Shown here one piece after another: positions 23-21,589 of a stretch of 21,589 bases of DNA. The DNA is taken from assembly GCA_021158055.1 (NCBI GenBank), contig JAGGVJ010000044.1, positions 1 to 21,589 on the forward strand, in the 5' to 3' direction. The stretch is from Candidatus Iainarchaeum sp. GTDB lineage: Archaea > Iainarchaeota > Iainarchaeia > JAGGVJ01. Position numbers and translations under genes: made by a program. Numbering within the stretch: position 1 is the first letter of the stretch; every line of letters begins with the position of its first letter. The notes below the pieces were generated by a model. That model was not told where the DNA came from and ran no database searches. It worked only from the letters and a program-made list of their open reading frames with translations.

Positions 23-40
23 TTTTTAATTACTTTATTT
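23..40 (+). promoter_or_regulatory. Possible TATA-like region upstream of the first giant surface gene
   Basis: This AT-rich stretch resembles archaeal TATA elements and is the only such block visible upstream of the first gene within the window. It lies about 70-85 bases before the proposed start, so a leader of roughly 45-60 nt would be expected. The element is degenerate and the window begins only 22 bases before it, so this is a weak call. Confidence 0.22.
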
Positions 41-96
41 GTGTTTTACTGTGCAGATTCAGTGGATTTTTTGATTGAAAGGGGAAAAATGCAATT

Positions 97-102
97 AAGG
101 TG
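97..102 (+). promoter_or_regulatory. Ribosome-binding site (AAGGTG) that decides the start of the first giant gene
   Basis: AAGGTG lies 6 nt before an in-frame TTG at 109. The same spacing (5-8 nt) separates GGTG from the starts of S27e, aIF2-alpha and priL in this window. The longer sequence TTAAGGTGTTG also occurs immediately before the start of the paralogous gene at 16601-16611. A GTG at 100 and a TTG at 103 are also in frame, but they overlap this motif, so they are less likely starts. The ATG at 89 is out of frame and stops after seven codons. Confidence 0.5.
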
Positions 103-108
103 TTGTTT

Positions 109-3100
109 TTGAATGCGTTAACTAAATCATTTGTTTTTTTAACTGTTGTTCTTTTTTTGTCCCCTGTTTTTTCAGCGGGAACCTGGTGGGATTCAAACTG
201 GGAATACAGGAAAGCAATTACAGTTACTGATTCTTCCGGTTCTGAGTTGACTGATTTTCAGGTTGCAGTTGAGTTTGATTCTGCTTCTTTGATTTCAGCC
301 GGCAGTATGAACAGTGATTGCAGTGATTTGAGGTTTGCTGACGAGATGGGTTTGAGCCAGTTGAGCTATTGGATTGAGTCTGGGTGCAATACTGTAAGTA
401 CAAAGGTTTGGGTCAAGGTGCCAAATATTCCTGCAAACGGTTCAACTGAGATCCATATGTATTACGGCAATCCTTCTGCTGTTTCTGAAAGCCGTGGAAA
501 TGATGTTTTTGAGTTTTTTGATGATTTTAATGATGATGTAATTGATGTTTCAAAGTGGCAAAATACAACTGGTTTTTCTGAGTCAGGAGGGTATCTGAAC
601 GGCGGAAATACATCTTACAGAATACTTAGTTTGAATTCTTTTACAGGCAACTATGTCTTGGAAACAAAACACTTAACCACGACAGATGCCACCAATGGTT
701 ATCAGGCAGGGGGTTGGTATGCGTCGTCTTCGAACGGCTACAATGTTTTGCTTCATGCAACAAGCAGGTGGTATACGCGAAATGATGGTGATTGGCATGG
801 GATGGGGTCGTTTTCCTACCTGGATTCCTGGGTAAAAATCAAAACTGTTGCGGCCGGTTCTAATTCCAAGGCAGGTTTGTATAGATTGTCTGACGGGGCG
901 GAGTCAACAGAAGCGATTGACGACAACAGCGGTTTGGATTTAGAGTATGTCGGGCTAGGTAAAAGAAATGATAATAGCTTTACAGGTCAGGGTTATTCAG
1001 CTAAATGGGACTGGATTTTTGTAAGAAAATATTCTTCATCGGACCCCACATCGACGTTGGGTGCGCAGGAGCAAAGCGACAACCCAAGAGTAACAGGCAT
1101 TTCATTTAACCCTGTTTCATCTGAACCGGGGCAGACTGTGGCTGTAACAGCAACGGCTACTGACCCGCAAGGAATTGAAACAATCGGCACTTACACTTTC
1201 ACAGTCAAGCGACCGGATTCAAGCGTATTTGCAGGGCCTGTTACTCAGGCCGGTAACCAGTACTCTTTTACGCCAGATGAAATAGGTTACTGGTCGGTTG
1301 AAGTGACGGCAGCTGACATTGAAGGCAACAAAAGTTATTATCTTTCCCGAAAACTGCTTGTAAATGTTTGGTGGAACTCAAACTGGAAGTACAGGAAACA
1401 AATTGATGTCACTGAAAAGACAGGGTTTGACCTTGCAAACTTTCAGGTTGCAATAGATGCGCAAAACCTTATTTACAATAACGCGGGAATTGTCGGAAGC
1501 TGGCATTTTTCAGAAGGAAAAGGAATAAGGGCAAGTGATTCATCGAAAGAGGGCAACAGGGGAAAAATTGTCGGCGCAATCTGGACGACTGGAAAAGCAA
1601 ACGGAGGGCTTCAGTTCAGCGGCAGTGAAAGCAGTTATGTTGAAGTTGAAAACGATTCAAGTTTGACTCCGGCAAGCGAGTTCAGTGTTGAAGCGTGGGT
1701 TGAGGCAACGGACCTTGGCACCCCTCAGGAAACCGATCCTAAATCGTGTCTTGAGATACTTAGGAAAGGTGACTCTGCAGGAGACGGCGTTTATGCCGTT
1801 GACCCTGACGGGGTTGGGGGAAACCCTTCTTTTCAGGTTTATTGCGATATGACTACTGACGGCGGGGGCTGGACAGTGGTCGGGCATTACAGGCACCCTG
1901 CGTATGAAAATGCTCCTGCAGACCACGACAACAGGGATTATGCTTATTTCATGAAGGCGAGGTCAGATAATTATTTCGGAAAAGAGGATTATCTGGCAGA
2001 CCCGAACTCAGTCGGCCCGTGGACTGACTGGAGAGTTTTACAGGGCTTTGAATGGCCGGTTGAATTTGCAGTTGTTTTGGATAAAGGCGACAGTTACGCT
2101 TCAGGCTGGGAAACATACACCAAAAAAGCGGTTTACCTTGTAAAAAACAGGAACACCATGCCTAATTATGGGACCACGCAAGACCTTACAAGTTCAGACA
2201 ATGTATTATACAAACTCAACACAGCAGACAACTGGACAGACGTCGGAAGCAGTTCGGCTTCAGGAATATACTACTGGTATCCGAGAAATTCGGGAAATTC
2301 TTACCTCACGCTGTTTCATGTAAGCAATTATTATTACATTGACGGAAGAGCCGCAACCAATTACCACTACAACAACTACTACGGTTCAGGAATGCCCGGG
2401 GGAAACAATTCATGGCACCACGGTTCACACCTGCTTGTCAGGGAATCCGATTTGACTCCGGCAATCATCAAGAAAAGCGGTTCCTTTGAGTTGTCTGTTG
2501 AAAACGGTGAGTTTGTGGGGCGGATAAACAACAGGCCTGTTAGAACTCCTGCTTTGACGGGGTGGAACCACATAGTTATGACCTACAACAAAAACGCACC
2601 TTCAAACCAGCAAAAAATTTATGTAAACGGGGAGCTTAAAGCTCAATCGAGTTTGACTGAAGGCATAAATTCAAATACGAGCAAGGTTTTTATCGGCAGG
2701 TATCTCAACGGAAAAGTTGACGAAGTGCGTGTTTATGATAGGGAAATGTCCCAGGCAGAAGTTGCTGAAAGGTTCAGTTTGAGCAAGGCGAAATCGGACT
2801 ACAGCGACGTGAAATTTGTGTGGTTTGACCCGGTTTCAAACACCGACAAGGAACTGTTTCACTGGTTTGAAAACGATGAAAAAGTTTGGGTAAATGTTCC
2901 TGAACTCAAGGCCAATTCCACTGAAACCCTTTACATGTACTACGGCAACAGTGCTGCTTCAAGCCAGCCGAGAGTGGTTTACGAGTCATATGATGCAAAC
3001 GAGTTTTACACTGACGGAACTGCTGGAAGCGGTTCCTGTTCAACTTCAACAAATGCCCAGGGGTGGGAATGTGATTACTGTTCCTGCAGCAGTAACAAGT

Positions 3101-6003
3101 GGAACGGGATGTATATGATGCGCGCGACAAACCCTGACAGCGCGACCCTCAATTTCAACACGCCGTACCCTGAAGAAGACCACCTGCTCTGCCTGAAGAT
3201 GATTGACGGTGACAGGTGGCAGGGGTACAGGATAACCACTGAAGACGGGTATTCAACAGAATACAGGTACAACCCCGGGCATTACTGGGGCGGAGACGGG
3301 GGAACAGGCGGTCAATATGAATGGGATTCGTTTGACAATGACGTTGACATTTCATCTTATTTCAGCGATGTTTGCGTTGTGATTCCCGCTGAACACATTG
3401 ATTCCAACCAGTTTGCAATCACTTTTGATGACGGGGTCAAAGGAAGCATCCCTTCGTGGATTTCAGGGATAAAGCTTGTTGCCGGCGGTGTTTACAAAAT
3501 GGCGACGTATGAAGCGGAAAGAATACAGGACCACGAATATGCAGTCACCTATTATTGGGAGAGCACTGACTGGGGCTGGTATGGGGGTTGGAACAGCAGG
3601 GGAATGACCAATGCGACCGGAACGCATAACCTTACTGCTCACACGCAATATCCCGGCGAGCCCCACAAATTTGTCATTGATTCACTTGACGACAGGAACT
3701 CCTGTTATTACATTTCAGTCAACGGGTGGACTTCGCAGACCAACTGCACGCCCCAAAACGGCGGATATCATGACCAAGTTTCTCCGTTTTTCATTCCCGG
3801 CGGAGTGATTCCGACAAAAGATTTCACAATCAGCGTCACCACTCAAAGCAGTGGACGTTACACTACCCAATGGATGCTTTCAAGGGGAATGGAAAATGAA
3901 CCTGCTGCATCAATCGGATTTGAGGAGAGAAGCAATACGCCGTATGTTACGGGTGTTGTTGTCAGTCCGGGTTCGCCTGAACAGGGAAAAGAAGTCACCG
4001 TCACAGTCAATGCAGCTGATAGGCAGGGCATTGAAACGATTTCAAGCTATGAGTTCACAATCAAAAAAGCTGACGGCAGTGTTTTTGCAGGCCCTGTAAC
4101 CCAGTCAGGCAATGAATACTTGTTTACTCCTGATGCCGCGGGTTACTGGTCGGTTGAGGTGAGTGTGACTGACTCAGACGATCATAAAAGTGATGTGCAT
4201 TCAACGCAAGTGGTTGTCAGTGGTTGGTGGAACAGTAATTGGAGTTATAGGATTCCAGTAACTCTTACAGATACTTCGGGTTCAAATCTTATTGATTATC
4301 AGGTTGCAATTGAGTTTGATTCCGCTTCTTTGGTTTCTTCGGGATTAATGAATGCTGACTGCAGTGATTTGCGGTTTGCTGATGTTTATGGAATACATGA
4401 GTTGAGCTACTGGGTTGAGTCCGGGTGCAACACGTCCAGTACTAAGGTGGGGGTAAAGGTTCCAAGTATCCCCGCGAGTGACTCGGAAACAATTTACATG
4501 TACTACGGCAACCCAGATGCTTTAAGTGCAAGTGATAAGTTGGGGATTTTCACGGTTTTTAATGATTTTGAAGACAGTTTTTCAACCGGTTTTGGGGCCT
4601 GGCAAGTGGTTGAGAGTCATGATTTCACTGCTTTTGTGACGGATTATTACCAGTTGGGGTCTGGTTCGCTTTTGCAGTATCAGGATGACACTTCTCATAA
4701 TGCGTATAAGAAGGAGAGGTTAAGTGTTGATTTGAGCGGAAAGCTGATTGGAAAATTAAGAATTTACAATATATCTAGCTGGAGCACCACTAATTCAGGT
4801 AGCTGGTGGTCTTGGGCTTACACGCAGTTTTGCGTTAGGGACGGGACCAATAGCTATTGCAAATCAACAATGTATCACAAGCCCAATGCAGAGACAAAAG
4901 TTCACTATGACAATGTTGATACTGCTGACGGGTCTGAAGCGGGTTCTGATGGCAGGACATGGTATTATTATGATTATGTGATTCCTGATACCTGGAACAA
5001 GGAGTCAGTAACAATTGAGTTAATAACTGATGCTGACGGCGGTGATCAAGGAGCATTGGTGAAGTCCTGGGGCAGATGGGACGTGATGTACGCTCAGGGA
5101 GCAGTTTCTTCTGAGCCCACAGTTATTTTTGGTGTGCAGGAACAGTTTGACGCTCCAATAGTTACAGGAATCTCGCTTAATTTTTCTCTGTTTGAGGTAG
5201 GAGACACCATTGAGGCGACTGCTACTGCGACTGACCCGAATGACGACCCAATCATCCAGTATGATTTCCGTGTTTTGAATGGTTTGGGTAATGGGGTTTT
5301 GAATCCCTCTGTTCAGGGTTCAAATGTTTATTCTTTTACTGCTGTTGGCGAGCTTGGTTTGTGGCAGGTGAAAGCAAAGGCGTTTGACGGGGAGTACTGG
5401 GGTCCTGAATTCACCAAGGAAGTGTTTGTGAATGATTCAAGCCTTGCAACTGCGGGTTTGAGTTTTGATAATGGGGTATTTTCAAACACTGAAGTGTCAG
5501 CCGGAAGCGTGGTTCTTTTGGATGGACAAACAAATGGGGCTTTCACCACTAATGCAATTGACCCAGTGAATTTCAGCAAGTGGGGTGTCGTGACTTTCTC
5601 AAAAACCACGCCCGGGAGTTCAACGCTGACTGTTGATGTTTTGAAAGCATCTGATGATTCAGTTTTAATCGCAGACGTGAAGAACGGACAAAACATTTCA
5701 GGTCTTGGAGCCACTGCCATAAAACTGAGGGCAAATTTCACTTCCGGGAGCACTCCGTTTTTGGATTCATGGGACGTGAGTTATTATTCTCAATTTAAGA
5801 TAACTGTAACCAATTGCTCGGCTCCTTACTCAGGCGAAGTCACTGCAGAGGCGGTGAGGGTAAGTGATTCTGAAGAGTTTGGCCCGTTCACAGGAACCAA
5901 CGGGCAAGTGTTTGTTGAAGTCCCGCCGGGAATTTACAACATTCAGGCGTGCATTCCTGAAAACGAAAAGTGCAGCTGGAAGTACAACGTGGAACTCGCA
6001 TGA
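109..6003 (+). CDS. Giant secreted multidomain surface protein (DUF2341 / Ig-like / LamG / fibrinogen-related)
   Basis: A protein of about 1,964 aa with an N-terminal hydrophobic signal peptide (109-177, ending near FSAG). Domains in order, by nucleotide: DUF2341 module 1 (184-474, WWDSNW...MYYGN), a beta-rich insert (508-1059) ending VRKYSSSDP, Ig-like 1 (1081-1368), DUF2341 module 2 (1369-2952) interrupted by a LamG domain that is itself interrupted by a fibrinogen-related domain, an unrecognised Trp/Tyr/Cys-rich region (2977-3924), Ig-like 2 (3931-4224), DUF2341 module 3 (4225-4515) with insert (4537-5139), Ig-like 3 (5155-5433), a beta domain (5437-5784) and a transthyretin-like C-terminal domain (5794-6000). 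There is no C-terminal membrane helix, so the means of surface retention is unknown. Such proteins are typical of archaeal cell surfaces; adhesion or recognition is inferred. The start is TTG 109 on RBS spacing; GTG 100 is the alternative. Confidence 0.9.
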   Translation: MNALTKSFVFLTVVLFLSPVFSAGTWWDSNWEYRKAITVTDSSGSELTDFQVAVEFDSASLISAGSMNSDCSDLRFADEMGLSQLSYWIESGCNTVSTKVWVKVPNIPANGSTEIHMYYGNPSAVSESRGNDVFEFFDDFNDDVIDVSKWQNTTGFSESGGYLNGGNTSYRILSLNSFTGNYVLETKHLTTTDATNGYQAGGWYASSSNGYNVLLHATSRWYTRNDGDWHGMGSFSYLDSWVKIKTVAAGSNSKAGLYRLSDGAESTEAIDDNSGLDLEYVGLGKRNDNSFTGQGYSAKWDWIFVRKYSSSDPTSTLGAQEQSDNPRVTGISFNPVSSEPGQTVAVTATATDPQGIETIGTYTFTVKRPDSSVFAGPVTQAGNQYSFTPDEIGYWSVEVTAADIEGNKSYYLSRKLLVNVWWNSNWKYRKQIDVTEKTGFDLANFQVAIDAQNLIYNNAGIVGSWHFSEGKGIRASDSSKEGNRGKIVGAIWTTGKANGGLQFSGSESSYVEVENDSSLTPASEFSVEAWVEATDLGTPQETDPKSCLEILRKGDSAGDGVYAVDPDGVGGNPSFQVYCDMTTDGGGWTVVGHYRHPAYENAPADHDNRDYAYFMKARSDNYFGKEDYLADPNSVGPWTDWRVLQGFEWPVEFAVVLDKGDSYASGWETYTKKAVYLVKNRNTMPNYGTTQDLTSSDNVLYKLNTADNWTDVGSSSASGIYYWYPRNSGNSYLTLFHVSNYYYIDGRAATNYHYNNYYGSGMPGGNNSWHHGSHLLVRESDLTPAIIKKSGSFELSVENGEFVGRINNRPVRTPALTGWNHIVMTYNKNAPSNQQKIYVNGELKAQSSLTEGINSNTSKVFIGRYLNGKVDEVRVYDREMSQAEVAERFSLSKAKSDYSDVKFVWFDPVSNTDKELFHWFENDEKVWVNVPELKANSTETLYMYYGNSAASSQPRVVYESYDANEFYTDGTAGSGSCSTSTNAQGWECDYCSCSSNKWNGMYMMRATNPDSATLNFNTPYPEEDHLLCLKMIDGDRWQGYRITTEDGYSTEYRYNPGHYWGGDGGTGGQYEWDSFDNDVDISSYFSDVCVVIPAEHIDSNQFAITFDDGVKGSIPSWISGIKLVAGGVYKMATYEAERIQDHEYAVTYYWESTDWGWYGGWNSRGMTNATGTHNLTAHTQYPGEPHKFVIDSLDDRNSCYYISVNGWTSQTNCTPQNGGYHDQVSPFFIPGGVIPTKDFTISVTTQSSGRYTTQWMLSRGMENEPAASIGFEERSNTPYVTGVVVSPGSPEQGKEVTVTVNAADRQGIETISSYEFTIKKADGSVFAGPVTQSGNEYLFTPDAAGYWSVEVSVTDSDDHKSDVHSTQVVVSGWWNSNWSYRIPVTLTDTSGSNLIDYQVAIEFDSASLVSSGLMNADCSDLRFADVYGIHELSYWVESGCNTSSTKVGVKVPSIPASDSETIYMYYGNPDALSASDKLGIFTVFNDFEDSFSTGFGAWQVVESHDFTAFVTDYYQLGSGSLLQYQDDTSHNAYKKERLSVDLSGKLIGKLRIYNISSWSTTNSGSWWSWAYTQFCVRDGTNSYCKSTMYHKPNAETKVHYDNVDTADGSEAGSDGRTWYYYDYVIPDTWNKESVTIELITDADGGDQGALVKSWGRWDVMYAQGAVSSEPTVIFGVQEQFDAPIVTGISLNFSLFEVGDTIEATATATDPNDDPIIQYDFRVLNGLGNGVLNPSVQGSNVYSFTAVGELGLWQVKAKAFDGEYWGPEFTKEVFVNDSSLATAGLSFDNGVFSNTEVSAGSVVLLDGQTNGAFTTNAIDPVNFSKWGVVTFSKTTPGSSTLTVDVLKASDDSVLIADVKNGQNISGLGATAIKLRANFTSGSTPFLDSWDVSYYSQFKITVTNCSAPYSGEVTAEAVRVSDSEEFGPFTGTNGQVFVEVPPGIYNIQACIPENEKCSWKYNVELA
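1732..2445 (+). other. Fibrinogen-related domain inserted inside a LamG domain inside a DUF2341 module
   Basis: The translated segment begins KSCLEILRKGDSAGDGVY and continues with FQVYCDMTTDGGGWTVV, the classic start of fibrinogen C-terminal-like domains found in collagen-type and bacterial or archaeal surface proteins. It ends near NSWHHGSHLLVRES. Upstream flanking sequence (FSVEAWVEATDLG) and downstream sequence (AIIKKSGSFELSVENG...GWNHIVMTYN...VYVN-like...VDEVRVYDREMS) read as one continuous LamG fold, so this domain sits in a LamG loop. The two cysteines of the N-terminal part (at about 1747 and 1843) would pair as in the family. Ligand binding is unknown. Confidence 0.75.
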
Positions 6004-16613: not shown

Positions 16614-19600
16614 ATGGTTGTCCAAAAAAAGTTGTTTTTGATTTTTGCGTGCATTGTGGCTCTTTTTCTTTTTATTCAGCCGGTTTGCTCCGCTTCATGG
16701 TGGGATTCAAACTGGGAGTACAGGAAACCGGTCACTGTGACTGACACCAGCGGTTCTGATCTGGCTGATTTTCAGGTTTTGTTCGGGTTTGATTCTCAAT
16801 CACTGGTTTCTGCCGGGAAGATGAATGCTGATTGCAGTGATTTGAGGTTTGCTGACGAGTCGGATTTGCGGGAGTTGAGTTATTGGGTTGAGTCCGGGTG
16901 CAACACTGCAAATACGATGGTGTGGGTGAAGGTTCCAAGCATCCCCGCAAGTTCATTTACAGTCATATATATGTATTACGGCAACGCGCCTGCAAGTTCT
17001 GCGAGCAACTATATCAATACTTTTGATGTCTTGGGTGACGGCTCTGACGGGACTTTAACAGTTTCTTCTGCGGGTACGGTGGTTAATGATTATGATTACT
17101 TAACCGGAAATGAAGATGCTGGAGAAACATCCATAGTTGTAAACAGCGGTTCTGGTTTTTCAGATGGAGACGAAATATTGATAATACAGATGCAAAGCTA
17201 TTCCGGCGGTGTTGCAGGAACCTATGAGTTCAGAAAGATAAGTTCCGGCGGGGGCACGACAACATTCACGCTTGATGCGCCGTTAAAAAACAGTTATGCT
17301 TCAGGGACGTTTAACCCGTCCGCCGCCACGGTGACGCAGGTTGTCAGGGTTCCGCAATATACCGGCGTGACCGTTGATGCAGGGGCAAGTATAATTTCTT
17401 CTGCCTGGAATGGTTACAAGGGAGGGGTAGTCATATTTAGGGCAAGCGGAGATGTAACTGTAAATGGAAATATTGATGTGTCAGGCAAGGGGTTTAGCGG
17501 GGGTGCCGGGGCAGCTGCTACTTCACCTGCACTTGGGGGCATAACATATAATGGAAGAGGCGGTTCAGGAGGTTATGTTTATTCATATGCCGGGCTTGCG
17601 GGACAAGGCGGTGGCGGAGGCGGAGGCAGCTGGACCAACGGAGGGATGGGAAGCGGCGCTGCCGGAACTGTCGGCGGCGCGGGCGGAGGCGGTGGCGGAC
17701 AGCGGGAAGGTTGCTATATGTCCCCTTATGGTGGCGGTGGCGGCGGAGGTGGATATGGCTCCGCAGGCAATGGGGGGTACGGGAGTAATAATGGTTCAGA
17801 GGGCATTAATTCAATGGGCGGCTCGGGAGCAACCCCCGCCGCTGTCGGCTGTAACAGCATCGGTTCCCCTGGCGGGGGCGGAGGCGGCGGAATTTACGGA
17901 ACACCTAATCTTGCCAAGTTATATTTAGGAAGCGGTGGTGCAGGTGGCGGAGGCGGCTGGCAACAGGATGGCGGCGGCAGTTCATCCGGCGGAAGCGGTG
18001 CAGGCGGAGGAGGAATTATTTATGTCACTGCAAACGCCATTGCCATTAATGACGGTGCGGCAGTTTCGGCTGACGGTGACCAGGGTTCAGCTGGCGGTAC
18101 AAGCGGTAACGGCAATTCAGGCGGGGGAGGGGGAGGTGCCGGAGGTTCGGTATATCTCACAGGAAATTCCCTTGCCGTGGGCACGGTCCAGGTAACTTCT
18201 GACGGCGGGGCAGGAGGGGCAGGCGGAAACGGACCTATGGCCGGTGGTATCGGCGGAGATGGCCGCATCCGTTTAAGTTCTTATTCCATATCAGGTTCAA
18301 CGGGCCCGACAGCTTATACAGCGGGATTTGATGAGGAATATGTCCGAAAATACGCTTCCTCTGAACCAGCGTCAGATATGGGTGTGGAGGAGCAGAGTGA
18401 TCTGCCGTGTGTTACAGGTGTTTCTTTTGATCCAGTTTTTCCCGAGTCAGGCCAGCTTGTGACTGTGACGGCAGCCGCTGATGACCCGCAGGGAATCGGG
18501 ACGATTGACAGTTATTCTTTTACGGTGAAAAGCCCTGAAGGGAGTGTGTTTGCGGGGCCGGTTTCGCAGGGGAGCAATGTGTATTCTTTTATTCCCAATG
18601 TTGCGGGTTCGTGGACTGTTGAGATTACGGCGACTGATGCAGAGGCGAACACAAGCAGTGTTTTCAGCGAGAGTGTGAGTGTCCGCGGCTGGTGGGATTC
18701 AAACTGGGAGTACAGGAAAGCAATTACTGTGGCTGACACCAGCGGTTCTGATCTGGCTGATTTTCAGGTGCTGGTCGGGTTTGATTCTCAATCCCTGGTT
18801 TCTGCCGGGAAGATGAATGCTGATTGCAGTGATTTGCGGTTTGCTGACGAATCGGGTTTGAGCGGGTTGGGTTACTGGGTTGAGTCCGGGTGCAATACTG
18901 CGGACACGAGGGTTTGGGTAAAGGTCCCTGAAATCCCCGCAGGTTCAGGCAAGACAATCTATGTTTACTACGGCAATGCGGAAGCGGAGAGCGCGAGTGA
19001 CGGGGATGCAGTGTTTGAGTTTTTTGATGATTTTGAGGATGATGTTGTTGGACAAATGGCTACTGGATGGGTTGATGCAAGCACCGGAAGTGGGTGGTCA
19101 CAAGTGAGTGATGCACAAGCCAAGCAAGGAAGTAAAAGCTTGGAAGCATATGGGGTTTCGTCAAGCAACGATGGCATACCTAGGAGATACAATATTGATT
19201 CAGTTGTAGATTATGCTTTTAGTTTCTGGGCAAGGTTTGGTAATGTTGATGCAGGTGGAGATGTAGCTTTTAGCTTTAGTGATACAAATGGTGGAGGTTT
19301 GGGGTCGGCAAGTGAAATTTTTAGCGCGAGTTCTATGATGATTTATGCTGAGACAGGCAGCACTTTTTTCACACCCGTTGATGATACTTGGTATTTCTTT
19401 GAATTTAAAAAAGCTAATTCATTGTCAAGCGCTTATGTTTATGATGCAAACCGGGATTTAATAACAAGTGTAGTAGACCAACCAGCACCGTCTACTTATG
19501 GTTTTGATAAAATTTATATAATTAGTGGTAATGGGGGGCAGGATTGCTTTTTTGATGTATTTCGAATCCGCAAATACGCTTCTTCCGAACCGGAATCAAA

Positions 19601-21589
19601 TGTGGGTGTGGAGGAGCAGAGTGATCTGCCGTATATTACAGGTGTTTCTTTTGACCCGGTTTTTCCCGAGGCAGGTCAGCTTGTGACTGTGACGGCGACC
19701 GCTGCTGACCCGCAGGGAATCGGGACGATTGACAGTTATTTTTTTACTGTGAAAAACCCTGAAGGGAGTGTGTTTGCTAGTTCGGGTTCGCAGGAGAGTA
19801 ATGTTTATTCTTTTGCTCCTGATGTTGCTGGTTTGTGGACTGTTGAGGTTACTGTGACTGATGCACAGGCGAACACAAGCAGTGTGTTCAGTGAACAAAT
19901 CAGTGTTGGTGGTTGGTGGGATTCAAACTGGATGTACAGGAAACCAATTACTGTGGCTGACACCAGCGGTTCTGATCTGACTGATTTTCAGGTGTTGCTT
20001 GAGTTTGATTCCGCTTCTTTGATTGCAGACGGCTTGATGAATGCCGATTGCAGTGATTTGCGCTTTGCTGACGGGTTTGGTTTGAGTGCGTTGGGTTATT
20101 GGGTTGAGTCGGGTTGCAATACTGCAAGCACCAAGGTTTGGGTGAAGGTTCCGGCTATTCCCGCAAACGGTTCAACAGACATTCACATGTATTACGGCAA
20201 CGCGCCTGCTGAGAGTGCAAGTAGCGGATCAGGTACTTTTGAGTTTTTTGATGATTTTGAGGAGGGGGTATTAGATAAATGGAAACAAACTACCTATGGC
20301 TCAATATCGACTACAGCTCATTCAGGCACATATTCTGGTGTGAGTACTACTGCCTGTTGTAAGGGTGAGCCAAACTTAGGTTTTATTTCTAACGACTTTT
20401 CGGCAATTCATAATTGTGTTGTTGAATATTGGTTTCGTGAAACTGCACGCCAGCCGTATTTCGGGTTATATATGGATTCTGGTAATTCCAATAACCGCTT
20501 TAAAAACCGAGTAGATTGCGAGCCTCACAGTGCAATGACTACAGAGTTTTGGGTTACAGAAAACGGTAGCTCTCTTGGTGGTAGTGGTAATGTTAGTGAT
20601 TTTAGTCGAAACACCTGGTATCATTCAAAAATAATAGTAAATGGAACAAATATAAAATGGTATTTTGATACTGCCGATGCGACGACTTTAAGAGGCGAGA
20701 TGACGCACGCAAATATTGCTAATTTGAATTTCACAAATTTTGCGTTTGTGGCCCGGGGAGGAAATACATACGCAGATGACATCCGCGTCCGCAAATACGC
20801 TTCTTCCGATCCCGCCGTAAGTTTTGGCGCGCAGGAGCAGTTTGGGGCGCCGGTTGTCACAGGGATGTCTTTTAATTTTTCGTTGTTTGAAGTAAGGGAT
20901 TCTGTAGAGGCGACTGCAGTGGCGTCTGATCCCGAAGGCGATCCGGTCATTCAGTATGATTTCCGTGTTTTTGATGGTTCGGGAAATGAGGTTTTGAATC
21001 CCGCAGCCCAGGATTCAGGCACTTATTCTTTCAATGCGATTGGCGAGCCCGGTTTGTGGCAGGTAAAGGCAAAAGCGAGTGACGGTGAGTACTGGGGCCC
21101 CGAGTTTACCAAAGAAGTGTTTGTGAATGATTCAGGTCTTGCAACCGTGGGTTTGAGTTTAAGCAACGGAGAGTATTCAAGCACTGAGCTGGTTGACGGA
21201 AGCGTGGTTCTTTCAGGCACGCAGTCAAGCGGGACTTTCATTACTCCTGCGATTGAGCCCGTGAATTTTAGCAAGTGGGGAGTCGTGACTTTTTCAAAGA
21301 CCACTCCGGGAAACTCAGCGCTGATGGTTGATGTTCTGGACGCGTCTGATGACTTGGTTTTAATCGCGGACGTGAAGAACGGGCAGAACATTTCAGGTCT
21401 TGAAGCCGGCGCCATAAAACTGAGGGCAAACTTTACTTCCGGAAGCACTCCGACACTGGATGCGTGGGACGTGAGTTATTACTCTCAATTTAAAATCACA
21501 ATCACGGATTGTTCAAATCCCTATTCGGGTGAGGTCACTACAGAAGCGGTAAGGGTAAGTGATTCCGAAGAGTTCGGCCCGTTCACGGG
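16614..21589 (+). CDS. Giant secreted DUF2341 surface protein with glycine-rich domain, partial (runs off window)
   Basis: The frame is open from ATG 16614 to the last base (1,658 complete codons, no stop). By nucleotide: signal peptide (16614-16694, hydrophobic core LIFACIVALFLFI, predicted cut after CSA), DUF2341 module 1 (16698-16988), a beta domain beginning INTFDVLGDGSDGTLTV (17005-17470), a glycine-rich region (17473-18270), Ig-like 1 (18394-18689), DUF2341 module 2 (18690-18977), a concanavalin-like insert (19014-19600), Ig-like 2 (19618-19913), module 3 (19914-20204), insert (20235-20820), Ig-like 3 (20845-21123), a beta domain (21127-21474) and the start of a transthyretin-like tail. 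Each module ends with an RKYASSxP-type sequence. It is a paralogue of the gene at 109-6003. By alignment the last base corresponds to 5894 there, so the stop should lie about 109 bases beyond the window. It is probably surface-exposed; its ligand is unknown. Confidence 0.9.
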   Translation, partial: MVVQKKLFLIFACIVALFLFIQPVCSASWWDSNWEYRKPVTVTDTSGSDLADFQVLFGFDSQSLVSAGKMNADCSDLRFADESDLRELSYWVESGCNTANTMVWVKVPSIPASSFTVIYMYYGNAPASSASNYINTFDVLGDGSDGTLTVSSAGTVVNDYDYLTGNEDAGETSIVVNSGSGFSDGDEILIIQMQSYSGGVAGTYEFRKISSGGGTTTFTLDAPLKNSYASGTFNPSAATVTQVVRVPQYTGVTVDAGASIISSAWNGYKGGVVIFRASGDVTVNGNIDVSGKGFSGGAGAAATSPALGGITYNGRGGSGGYVYSYAGLAGQGGGGGGGSWTNGGMGSGAAGTVGGAGGGGGGQREGCYMSPYGGGGGGGGYGSAGNGGYGSNNGSEGINSMGGSGATPAAVGCNSIGSPGGGGGGGIYGTPNLAKLYLGSGGAGGGGGWQQDGGGSSSGGSGAGGGGIIYVTANAIAINDGAAVSADGDQGSAGGTSGNGNSGGGGGGAGGSVYLTGNSLAVGTVQVTSDGGAGGAGGNGPMAGGIGGDGRIRLSSYSISGSTGPTAYTAGFDEEYVRKYASSEPASDMGVEEQSDLPCVTGVSFDPVFPESGQLVTVTAAADDPQGIGTIDSYSFTVKSPEGSVFAGPVSQGSNVYSFIPNVAGSWTVEITATDAEANTSSVFSESVSVRGWWDSNWEYRKAITVADTSGSDLADFQVLVGFDSQSLVSAGKMNADCSDLRFADESGLSGLGYWVESGCNTADTRVWVKVPEIPAGSGKTIYVYYGNAEAESASDGDAVFEFFDDFEDDVVGQMATGWVDASTGSGWSQVSDAQAKQGSKSLEAYGVSSSNDGIPRRYNIDSVVDYAFSFWARFGNVDAGGDVAFSFSDTNGGGLGSASEIFSASSMMIYAETGSTFFTPVDDTWYFFEFKKANSLSSAYVYDANRDLITSVVDQPAPSTYGFDKIYIISGNGGQDCFFDVFRIRKYASSEPESNVGVEEQSDLPYITGVSFDPVFPEAGQLVTVTATAADPQGIGTIDSYFFTVKNPEGSVFASSGSQESNVYSFAPDVAGLWTVEVTVTDAQANTSSVFSEQISVGGWWDSNWMYRKPITVADTSGSDLTDFQVLLEFDSASLIADGLMNADCSDLRFADGFGLSALGYWVESGCNTASTKVWVKVPAIPANGSTDIHMYYGNAPAESASSGSGTFEFFDDFEEGVLDKWKQTTYGSISTTAHSGTYSGVSTTACCKGEPNLGFISNDFSAIHNCVVEYWFRETARQPYFGLYMDSGNSNNRFKNRVDCEPHSAMTTEFWVTENGSSLGGSGNVSDFSRNTWYHSKIIVNGTNIKWYFDTADATTLRGEMTHANIANLNFTNFAFVARGGNTYADDIRVRKYASSDPAVSFGAQEQFGAPVVTGMSFNFSLFEVRDSVEATAVASDPEGDPVIQYDFRVFDGSGNEVLNPAAQDSGTYSFNAIGEPGLWQVKAKASDGEYWGPEFTKEVFVNDSGLATVGLSLSNGEYSSTELVDGSVVLSGTQSSGTFITPAIEPVNFSKWGVVTFSKTTPGNSALMVDVLDASDDLVLIADVKNGQNISGLEAGAIKLRANFTSGSTPTLDAWDVSYYSQFKITITDCSNPYSGEVTTEAVRVSDSEEFGPFT
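16741..16863 (+). repeat. DUF2341 direct repeat, copy 1
   Basis: This 123-nt segment matches 18733-18855 with six differences, counted by eye, and is part of the first DUF2341 module of the second giant gene. The identity at synonymous positions is much higher than between other modules, which points to recent duplication or gene conversion. Confidence 0.85.
17473..18270 (+). other. GC-rich glycine-repeat coding region
   Basis: About 266 codons dominated by GGN glycine with Ser, Ala, Asn and Tyr, in runs such as GGGGGGGSW and GGGGGGGGYG separated by short beta-like strands (IIYVTANAIAI, SVYLTGNSLAV, RIRLSSYSI). It lies where other modules have a concanavalin-like insert. The upstream segment (DGDEILIIQMQ, VVRVPQYTGVTV, GGVVIFRASGDVTVNGNIDVSGKGF split around it) resembles a domain of bacterial surface proteins, including myxobacterial ones, that precedes glycine-rich loops. 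Several G-runs (for example 17870-17890 and 18121-18135) are visible. Confidence 0.8.
18381..18553 (+). repeat. Ig-like direct repeat, copy 1
   Basis: Begins GGTGTGGAGGAGCAGAGTGA and closely matches 19605-19777 with scattered differences. The offset between copies is 1,224 nt, the same as between DUF2341 modules 2 and 3 (18690 and 19914), so the Ig-like domain and the following module form one repeat unit. Confidence 0.85.
18733..18855 (+). repeat. DUF2341 direct repeat, copy 2
   Basis: Partner of 16741-16863, with six mismatches over 123 nt. A third, more diverged copy lies in module 3 from about 19957. Confidence 0.85.
19605..19777 (+). repeat. Ig-like direct repeat, copy 2
   Basis: Partner of 18381-18553 at a 1,224-nt offset. 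It encodes the end of the preceding insert (GVEEQSDLP) and most of the Ig-like domain. Confidence 0.85.

Follow-up and report, generated by a model that had tools for sequence, protein, structure and literature searches.

A fibrinogen-like domain nested within a LamG domain within a DUF2341 module of a giant archaeal protein, and a LamG loop as a probable socket for guest domains

The locus and its giant genes

The stretch of DNA analysed here (21,589 nucleotides, referred to as the window) lies within contig 18 of an archaeal genome of 1.15 Mb in 45 contigs; all of the window features described are on the forward strand. The ORF at 100..6003 encodes a protein of 1967 amino acids that comprises an N-terminal hydrophobic stretch, which by eye reads as a putative Sec signal peptide, three DUF2341 modules and a shared C-terminal region. 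It belongs to a family of paralogous giant DUF2341 proteins with variable bodies, represented also by a second ORF of the window (16614-21587) and on contigs 8, 15, 22, 31, 34 and 36 of the same genome. An N-terminal stretch (LFLNALTKSFVFL..LSPV.SAG) is common to several members of this family, as is a C-terminal region (SLAT.GLS...KWGV.TFSKTTPG...YSGEVTAEAVRVSDSEEFG).

Five of the six DUF2341 modules in the window are contiguous, as an initial sequence-only reading of the window had stated, and each is 96 amino acids long: modules 1 (184..471) and 3 (4225..4512) of the first giant ORF, and modules 1 (16698..16985), 2 (18690..18977) and 3 (19914..20201) of the second. The first DUF2341 of the second ORF is followed by a glycine-rich module (approximately 17019-18290), which by eye looks similar to modules in L094 (contig 15 of the same genome), and also to a domain inserted in a LamG of another DPANN phylum (L355; see below).

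A three-level nest in the second module

The remaining module, the second of the three in ORF 100-6003, is made up of five pieces. An N-terminal part of DUF2341 (1369..1476; WWNSNWKYRK...FQVAIDAQNLIY; WWNSNW...QNLIY) is followed by the N-terminal half of a LamG domain of the Laminin_G_3 type (1477..1719, ending SVEAWVEATDLG). A fibrinogen-like guest of 247 amino acids (1720..2460; TPQETDPKSC...LLVRESDLTP), related to GGGWT and fibrinogen-related domains (FReDs), occupies a loop of the LamG. The LamG then resumes at AIIKKSGSFELSV with a C-terminal half of a type also seen in split LamGs from other DPANN phyla and a short linker to DUF2341 (together 2461..2799), and the C-terminal part of DUF2341 runs from YSDVKF (2800) to MYYGN (2800..2949). 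Translation and alignment placed the boundaries where the sequence-only reading had drawn them; the start of the guest falls within about three residues of the DLG chosen there, and since a motif LG.ES.PG.SC also stands ahead of the FReDs of L014, L015, L036 and L115 (loci in our collection), the LG may belong to the guest.

Profile searches of 1369-2952 recovered all three families: Laminin_G_3 in two stretches (71.1 bits against a cut-off of 27.6), GGGWT_bact (NF040941; 76.3 against 30; core at 1744-1881, with the YCD..GGGWT N-terminal subdomain present), Fibrinogen_C (PF00147; 33.6 against 22, covering profile positions 2-47 of 221 only) and DUF2341 (PF10102; 32.7 against 23.4). The Pfam DUF2341 domain begins after the insertion point and taken alone is unsplit, so that to speak of a split DUF2341 depends on taking the upstream WW..YRK..FQV segment as part of the same domain; the two occur together in 55 of 56 untruncated cases. 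With that segment counted as DUF2341, the three-level nest, fibrinogen-like domain in LamG in DUF2341, is real, and the double insertion that had been claimed for this module is present.

The same reading had supposed such an insertion to be rare, and this is not borne out (the supposition was half right). When the guest is omitted, five LamGs of the same genome can be aligned with that of the window along its length, the one in contig 8 being cut by the contig end. The four complete ones, which lack a FReD, occupy the same slot of DUF2341, as does a LamG in a module of another family. Among 57 distinct DUF2341 C-parts in the set of loci examined, 49 directly followed an N-part, six had a LamG in between, one stood alone and one was truncated. 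The LamG-in-DUF2341 arrangement is therefore ordinary, and split LamGs recur in four DPANN phyla (see below). DUF2341 modules, some with LamG, were also observed in IMG/VR contigs classed as viral (L188-L212).

Predicted structure of the hosts

AlphaFold2 was run with two alignments, one rich in host sequences (A3) and one with added FReD rows (A4). Separate rows for N- and C-terminal fragments had been misplaced by MAFFT, and were replaced by row sets that a script chose by counting residues in the expected region; as such selection presupposes the domain boundaries, the result depends in part on how the sequence was parsed. The A3 model had a pLDDT of about 90 through most of both hosts (high in residues 8-30 and 481-527 of DUF2341 and 40-112 and 373-470 of LamG) and below 50 in the guest, which in the A4 model still lay mostly below 60 despite the FReD rows. 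Within DUF2341, values of 93 and 90 were obtained for residues 11-30, upstream of the Pfam boundary, and mostly 83-94 for the C-part.

Aligned jointly by VIA-align, the two LamG halves (model 37..470) matched the contiguous jellyroll 5hon_A with Z 20.5 and rmsd 2.4 over 179 residues, and the model thus shows them folding as one intact jellyroll around the guest. The view that the two parts of DUF2341 would form one domain rests on pLDDT and contiguous homologues. The earlier proposal that both host folds are kept accordingly stands for LamG, by its fit to a known structure, and for DUF2341 extends as far as those two lines of evidence. A Foldseek search against BFVD gave mostly LamG-like matches. 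Clostridial neurotoxin binding domains ranked high in the structure search by virtue of the common jellyroll, and no relationship to toxins is claimed.

The fibrinogen-like guest

Known FReDs are matched by the first 50 or so residues of the guest alone. Over its length it is 56-64% identical to bacterial proteins, and a scan of 84,980 species genomes with peptide patterns recovered relatives of full length from a Myxococcales MAG with six tandem copies (57-64% identity), from Marinilabilia and from a Bacteroidota MAG (56% each), and from no others; its absence elsewhere is weak evidence, because the scan was limited by those patterns. No relatives of the guest were found in viral contigs. A FReD core is present in four of 87 genomes of the window's phylum. 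The second FReD of this genome (contig 36, 29211-29333) lies directly after a DUF2341 and is not nested. Comparison of base composition between the guest (GC 47.5%; third position 49%) and the ORFs downstream (46.2%; 47.6%, near the guest values) and upstream (43.7%; 40.2%, below them) gave no clear sign of recent transfer.

Split LamGs in other DPANN archaea

Of the 71 ORFs with a FReD match that were inspected first, only two, those of the window and of an archaeon of another phylum (L014), had the FReD within a LamG. A third LamG (L120) is interrupted in the same loop, in this case by a DUF2341 together with a LamG. The C-halves of these three and of L144 (whose N-half would fall beyond its contig end) are mutual best or near-best matches, and the four were combined in a profile, A5, which was searched against two other DPANN phyla (371 and 156 genomes). 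Among the C-half matches in the loci retrieved, all ten informative held-out loci that scored at least 73 bits proved to be split, and the 46 below 73 bits comprised 10 of split type and 36 uninterrupted (these counts leave out four C-half matches cut at a contig edge). The excess of split loci in the top ten corresponds by our own hypergeometric arithmetic to about 5e-6, a figure to be read with the reservation that the loci are not independent. The loci found by A5 are related through selection, the split state itself not being a selection criterion. An N-half was located upstream in all ten, one being truncated by the contig start. A profile of eleven split C-halves, applied in the window's phylum, set the window and L120 alone well apart.

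Altogether, 20 individually checked split LamGs, distributed over four DPANN phyla, are cut at about the same loop (the window, L014, L120, the ten A5 loci, L269, L270, L331, L337, L283, L290 and the second L353 gene); L275, L285, L330, L348 and L144 were left out as unconfirmed, and L160, which had been flagged as split, was excluded since its break is at another place. In cases of clean separation between the halves, the match of the N-half mostly stops at around model position 77-82 of 205. Most of the genomes involved are fragmented assemblies. The literature searched yielded no report of a LamG split in this way.

The guests at this loop are varied. FReDs are found there in the window, L014 and L363, RCC1 domains in L265, L283 and L362, FG-GAP domains in L264 and L269, DUF2341 modules in L352, L353 (twice) and L359 (and, with a LamG in addition, in L120), and a glycine-rich module in L355. 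The guest of L263 looks NIDO-like by eye and had no Pfam match, and for several others a Pfam search gave nothing or sub-threshold matches only. One L353 gene (G577:C7) provides a second kind of triple nest with the roles reversed, as in its protein of 1085 amino acids the DUF2341 guest in the LamG socket (residues 529-794) is itself split by about 175 amino acids. As a separate observation, the N-termini of five archaeal FReD proteins (L014, L024, L033, L036 and L115) look class III pilin-like when read by eye.

Origin of the nested module

We consider it probable that module 2 serves as a head, nested to three levels, of a secreted and adhesin-like protein, and that its LamG loop acts as a socket for whole guest domains. 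The DUF2341 loop before the SDLRF strand carries the LamG jellyroll, a usual guest in this genome, and the loop after the LamG EAWV strand is the entry point for a further domain, here fibrinogen-like. As DPANN archaea of four phyla place different guests in the same loop, the LamG would serve as a frame for display and the guest would be the part that varies.

Socket-type C-halves are akin to one another. In a first tree of C-halves, 11 of 13 split rows fell into one group (SH-aLRT 96), which broke up when eight more split rows were added. The distribution of split and uninterrupted labels then required nine changes against 18.4 in shuffled data (none of 500 shuffles being as low), a clustering that is favoured by most split rows having been found by C-half similarity; for the N-halves the corresponding figures were 11 and 15.4 (one of 500 as low). 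The larger tree does not unite the split C-halves in a single clade and so gives no firm ground for one socket lineage.

In a tree of whole domains, the window LamG grouped with LamGs from its own genome that are uninterrupted (100/90). The nearest relative of its N-half is likewise an uninterrupted LamG of that genome (53%), and the nearest relatives of its C-half are split LamGs of other phyla. To judge from these relationships the window LamG looks like a mosaic; recombination and shared constraint both fit the discordance of its halves. A single clade of the window and L014 LamGs was not rejected (p 0.275), and one common clade of the window, L014 and L120 LamGs was (p 0.011).

It may be, though we think it rather unlikely, that the guest and the LamG C-half were moved by recombination as one cassette which replaced the resident C-half, an explanation that concerns the arrival of the guest and is compatible with a socket. 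The differing affinities of the two halves argue for such an event; however, the alignments are short and have few supported branches, a constraint shared by C-halves that lie beside a guest would give the same pattern, and no intermediate or donor was seen. We give still less credence to a one-off event in which a piece of a bacterial FReD gene entered an ordinary LamG of this genome, any likeness to other split LamGs being chance or convergence: the position of the whole domain and of its N-half would suit this, as would the otherwise bacterial occurrence of the full-length guest, but the affinity of the C-half, the FReD-like guests of L014 and L363 at the same site, and the tenable clade of window and L014 LamGs all speak against it. 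Misassembly, as might be suspected of a 45-contig assembly that is likely to be a MAG, is a very improbable source of the FReD within the LamG, because the reading frame runs unbroken through both joins, the two halves of LamG complement each other, the host folds are modelled well and the same layout occurs in independent genomes. Equally hard to credit is a mere succession of partial domains, two of LamG and two of DUF2341, an explanation that draws on the unsplit state of the Pfam DUF2341. It is refuted for LamG by the structural model, in which the two halves can be superposed together on a single jellyroll, and each half covers a part of the profile that the other lacks.

A possible basis for partner specificity

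Dependence on other cells is widespread among DPANN archaea, and the means by which they recognise a partner are poorly known. If the socket explanation is right, the protein of ORF 100-6003 would be a Sec-exported adhesin located on the cell surface or a pilus, with the LamG loop receiving exchangeable heads; the guest may bind a surface ligand on a partner cell, and guests may have been swapped to change specificity. The module may in that case form the compound ligand-binding head that the sequence-only reading had suggested. A more far-reaching idea, which we put forward as distinctly tentative, is that socket-type LamGs of DPANN archaea take up whole unrelated recognition domains, and that a block of guest plus LamG C-half moves as a unit between genes and phyla, amounting to a plug-in system for partner specificity.

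In an otherwise conserved LamG, a single defined loop that accommodates guests as different as FReDs, RCC1 and FG-GAP propellers and DUF2341 modules would be a possible site of specificity, which could be tested domain by domain. The same loop offers protein engineering a ready-made insertion site, and the module is a natural example of domain insertion with the guest exceeding its host at both levels. Annotation that ignores such splitting will miscount the LamGs of these genomes.

Comparison with known systems

LamG proteins of DPANN archaea have been proposed as host-attachment factors (PMC7414124, PMC10266531). DUF2341 proteins are encoded in archaeal type IV pilus loci, where they are proposed to be tip adhesins (PMC4858521), and a screen of M. 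maripaludis for transformation defects repeatedly recovered a DUF2341 gene (PMC10133366). The pilus-locus proteins have the same domain and are likewise large and multi-modular; unlike them, the DUF2341 of module 2 hosts a LamG, and inspection by eye of the ORFs listed for the window revealed no recognisable pilus genes.

At the level of the guest, the N-terminal 50 or so residues with YCD..GGGWT correspond to those of GGGWT_bact and fibrinogen-related domains (NF040941, PF00147), and the best PDB matches are intelectin-type lectins; the remaining 190 or so residues match bacterial homologues only, and not the ligand-binding part of animal FReDs. The LamG has its counterpart in sequence family and fold (Laminin_G_3/ConA-like jellyroll, PF13385) in domain 4 of AbnA (5hon_A), which is contiguous (206 residues), whereas the window LamG is broken by 247 amino acids in the loop after the EAWV strand.

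The topology of the whole module is identical to that of the nested A1-B1-C-B2-A2 insertions in a catalogue of domain insertions, where nesting of up to six levels is recorded and guests are smaller than their hosts in 77% of events (PMC13114784). The present module differs from most of these in that guests exceed hosts throughout, a LamG of about 190 residues lying in a DUF2341 of about 90, and a FReD of 247 in that LamG of 190.
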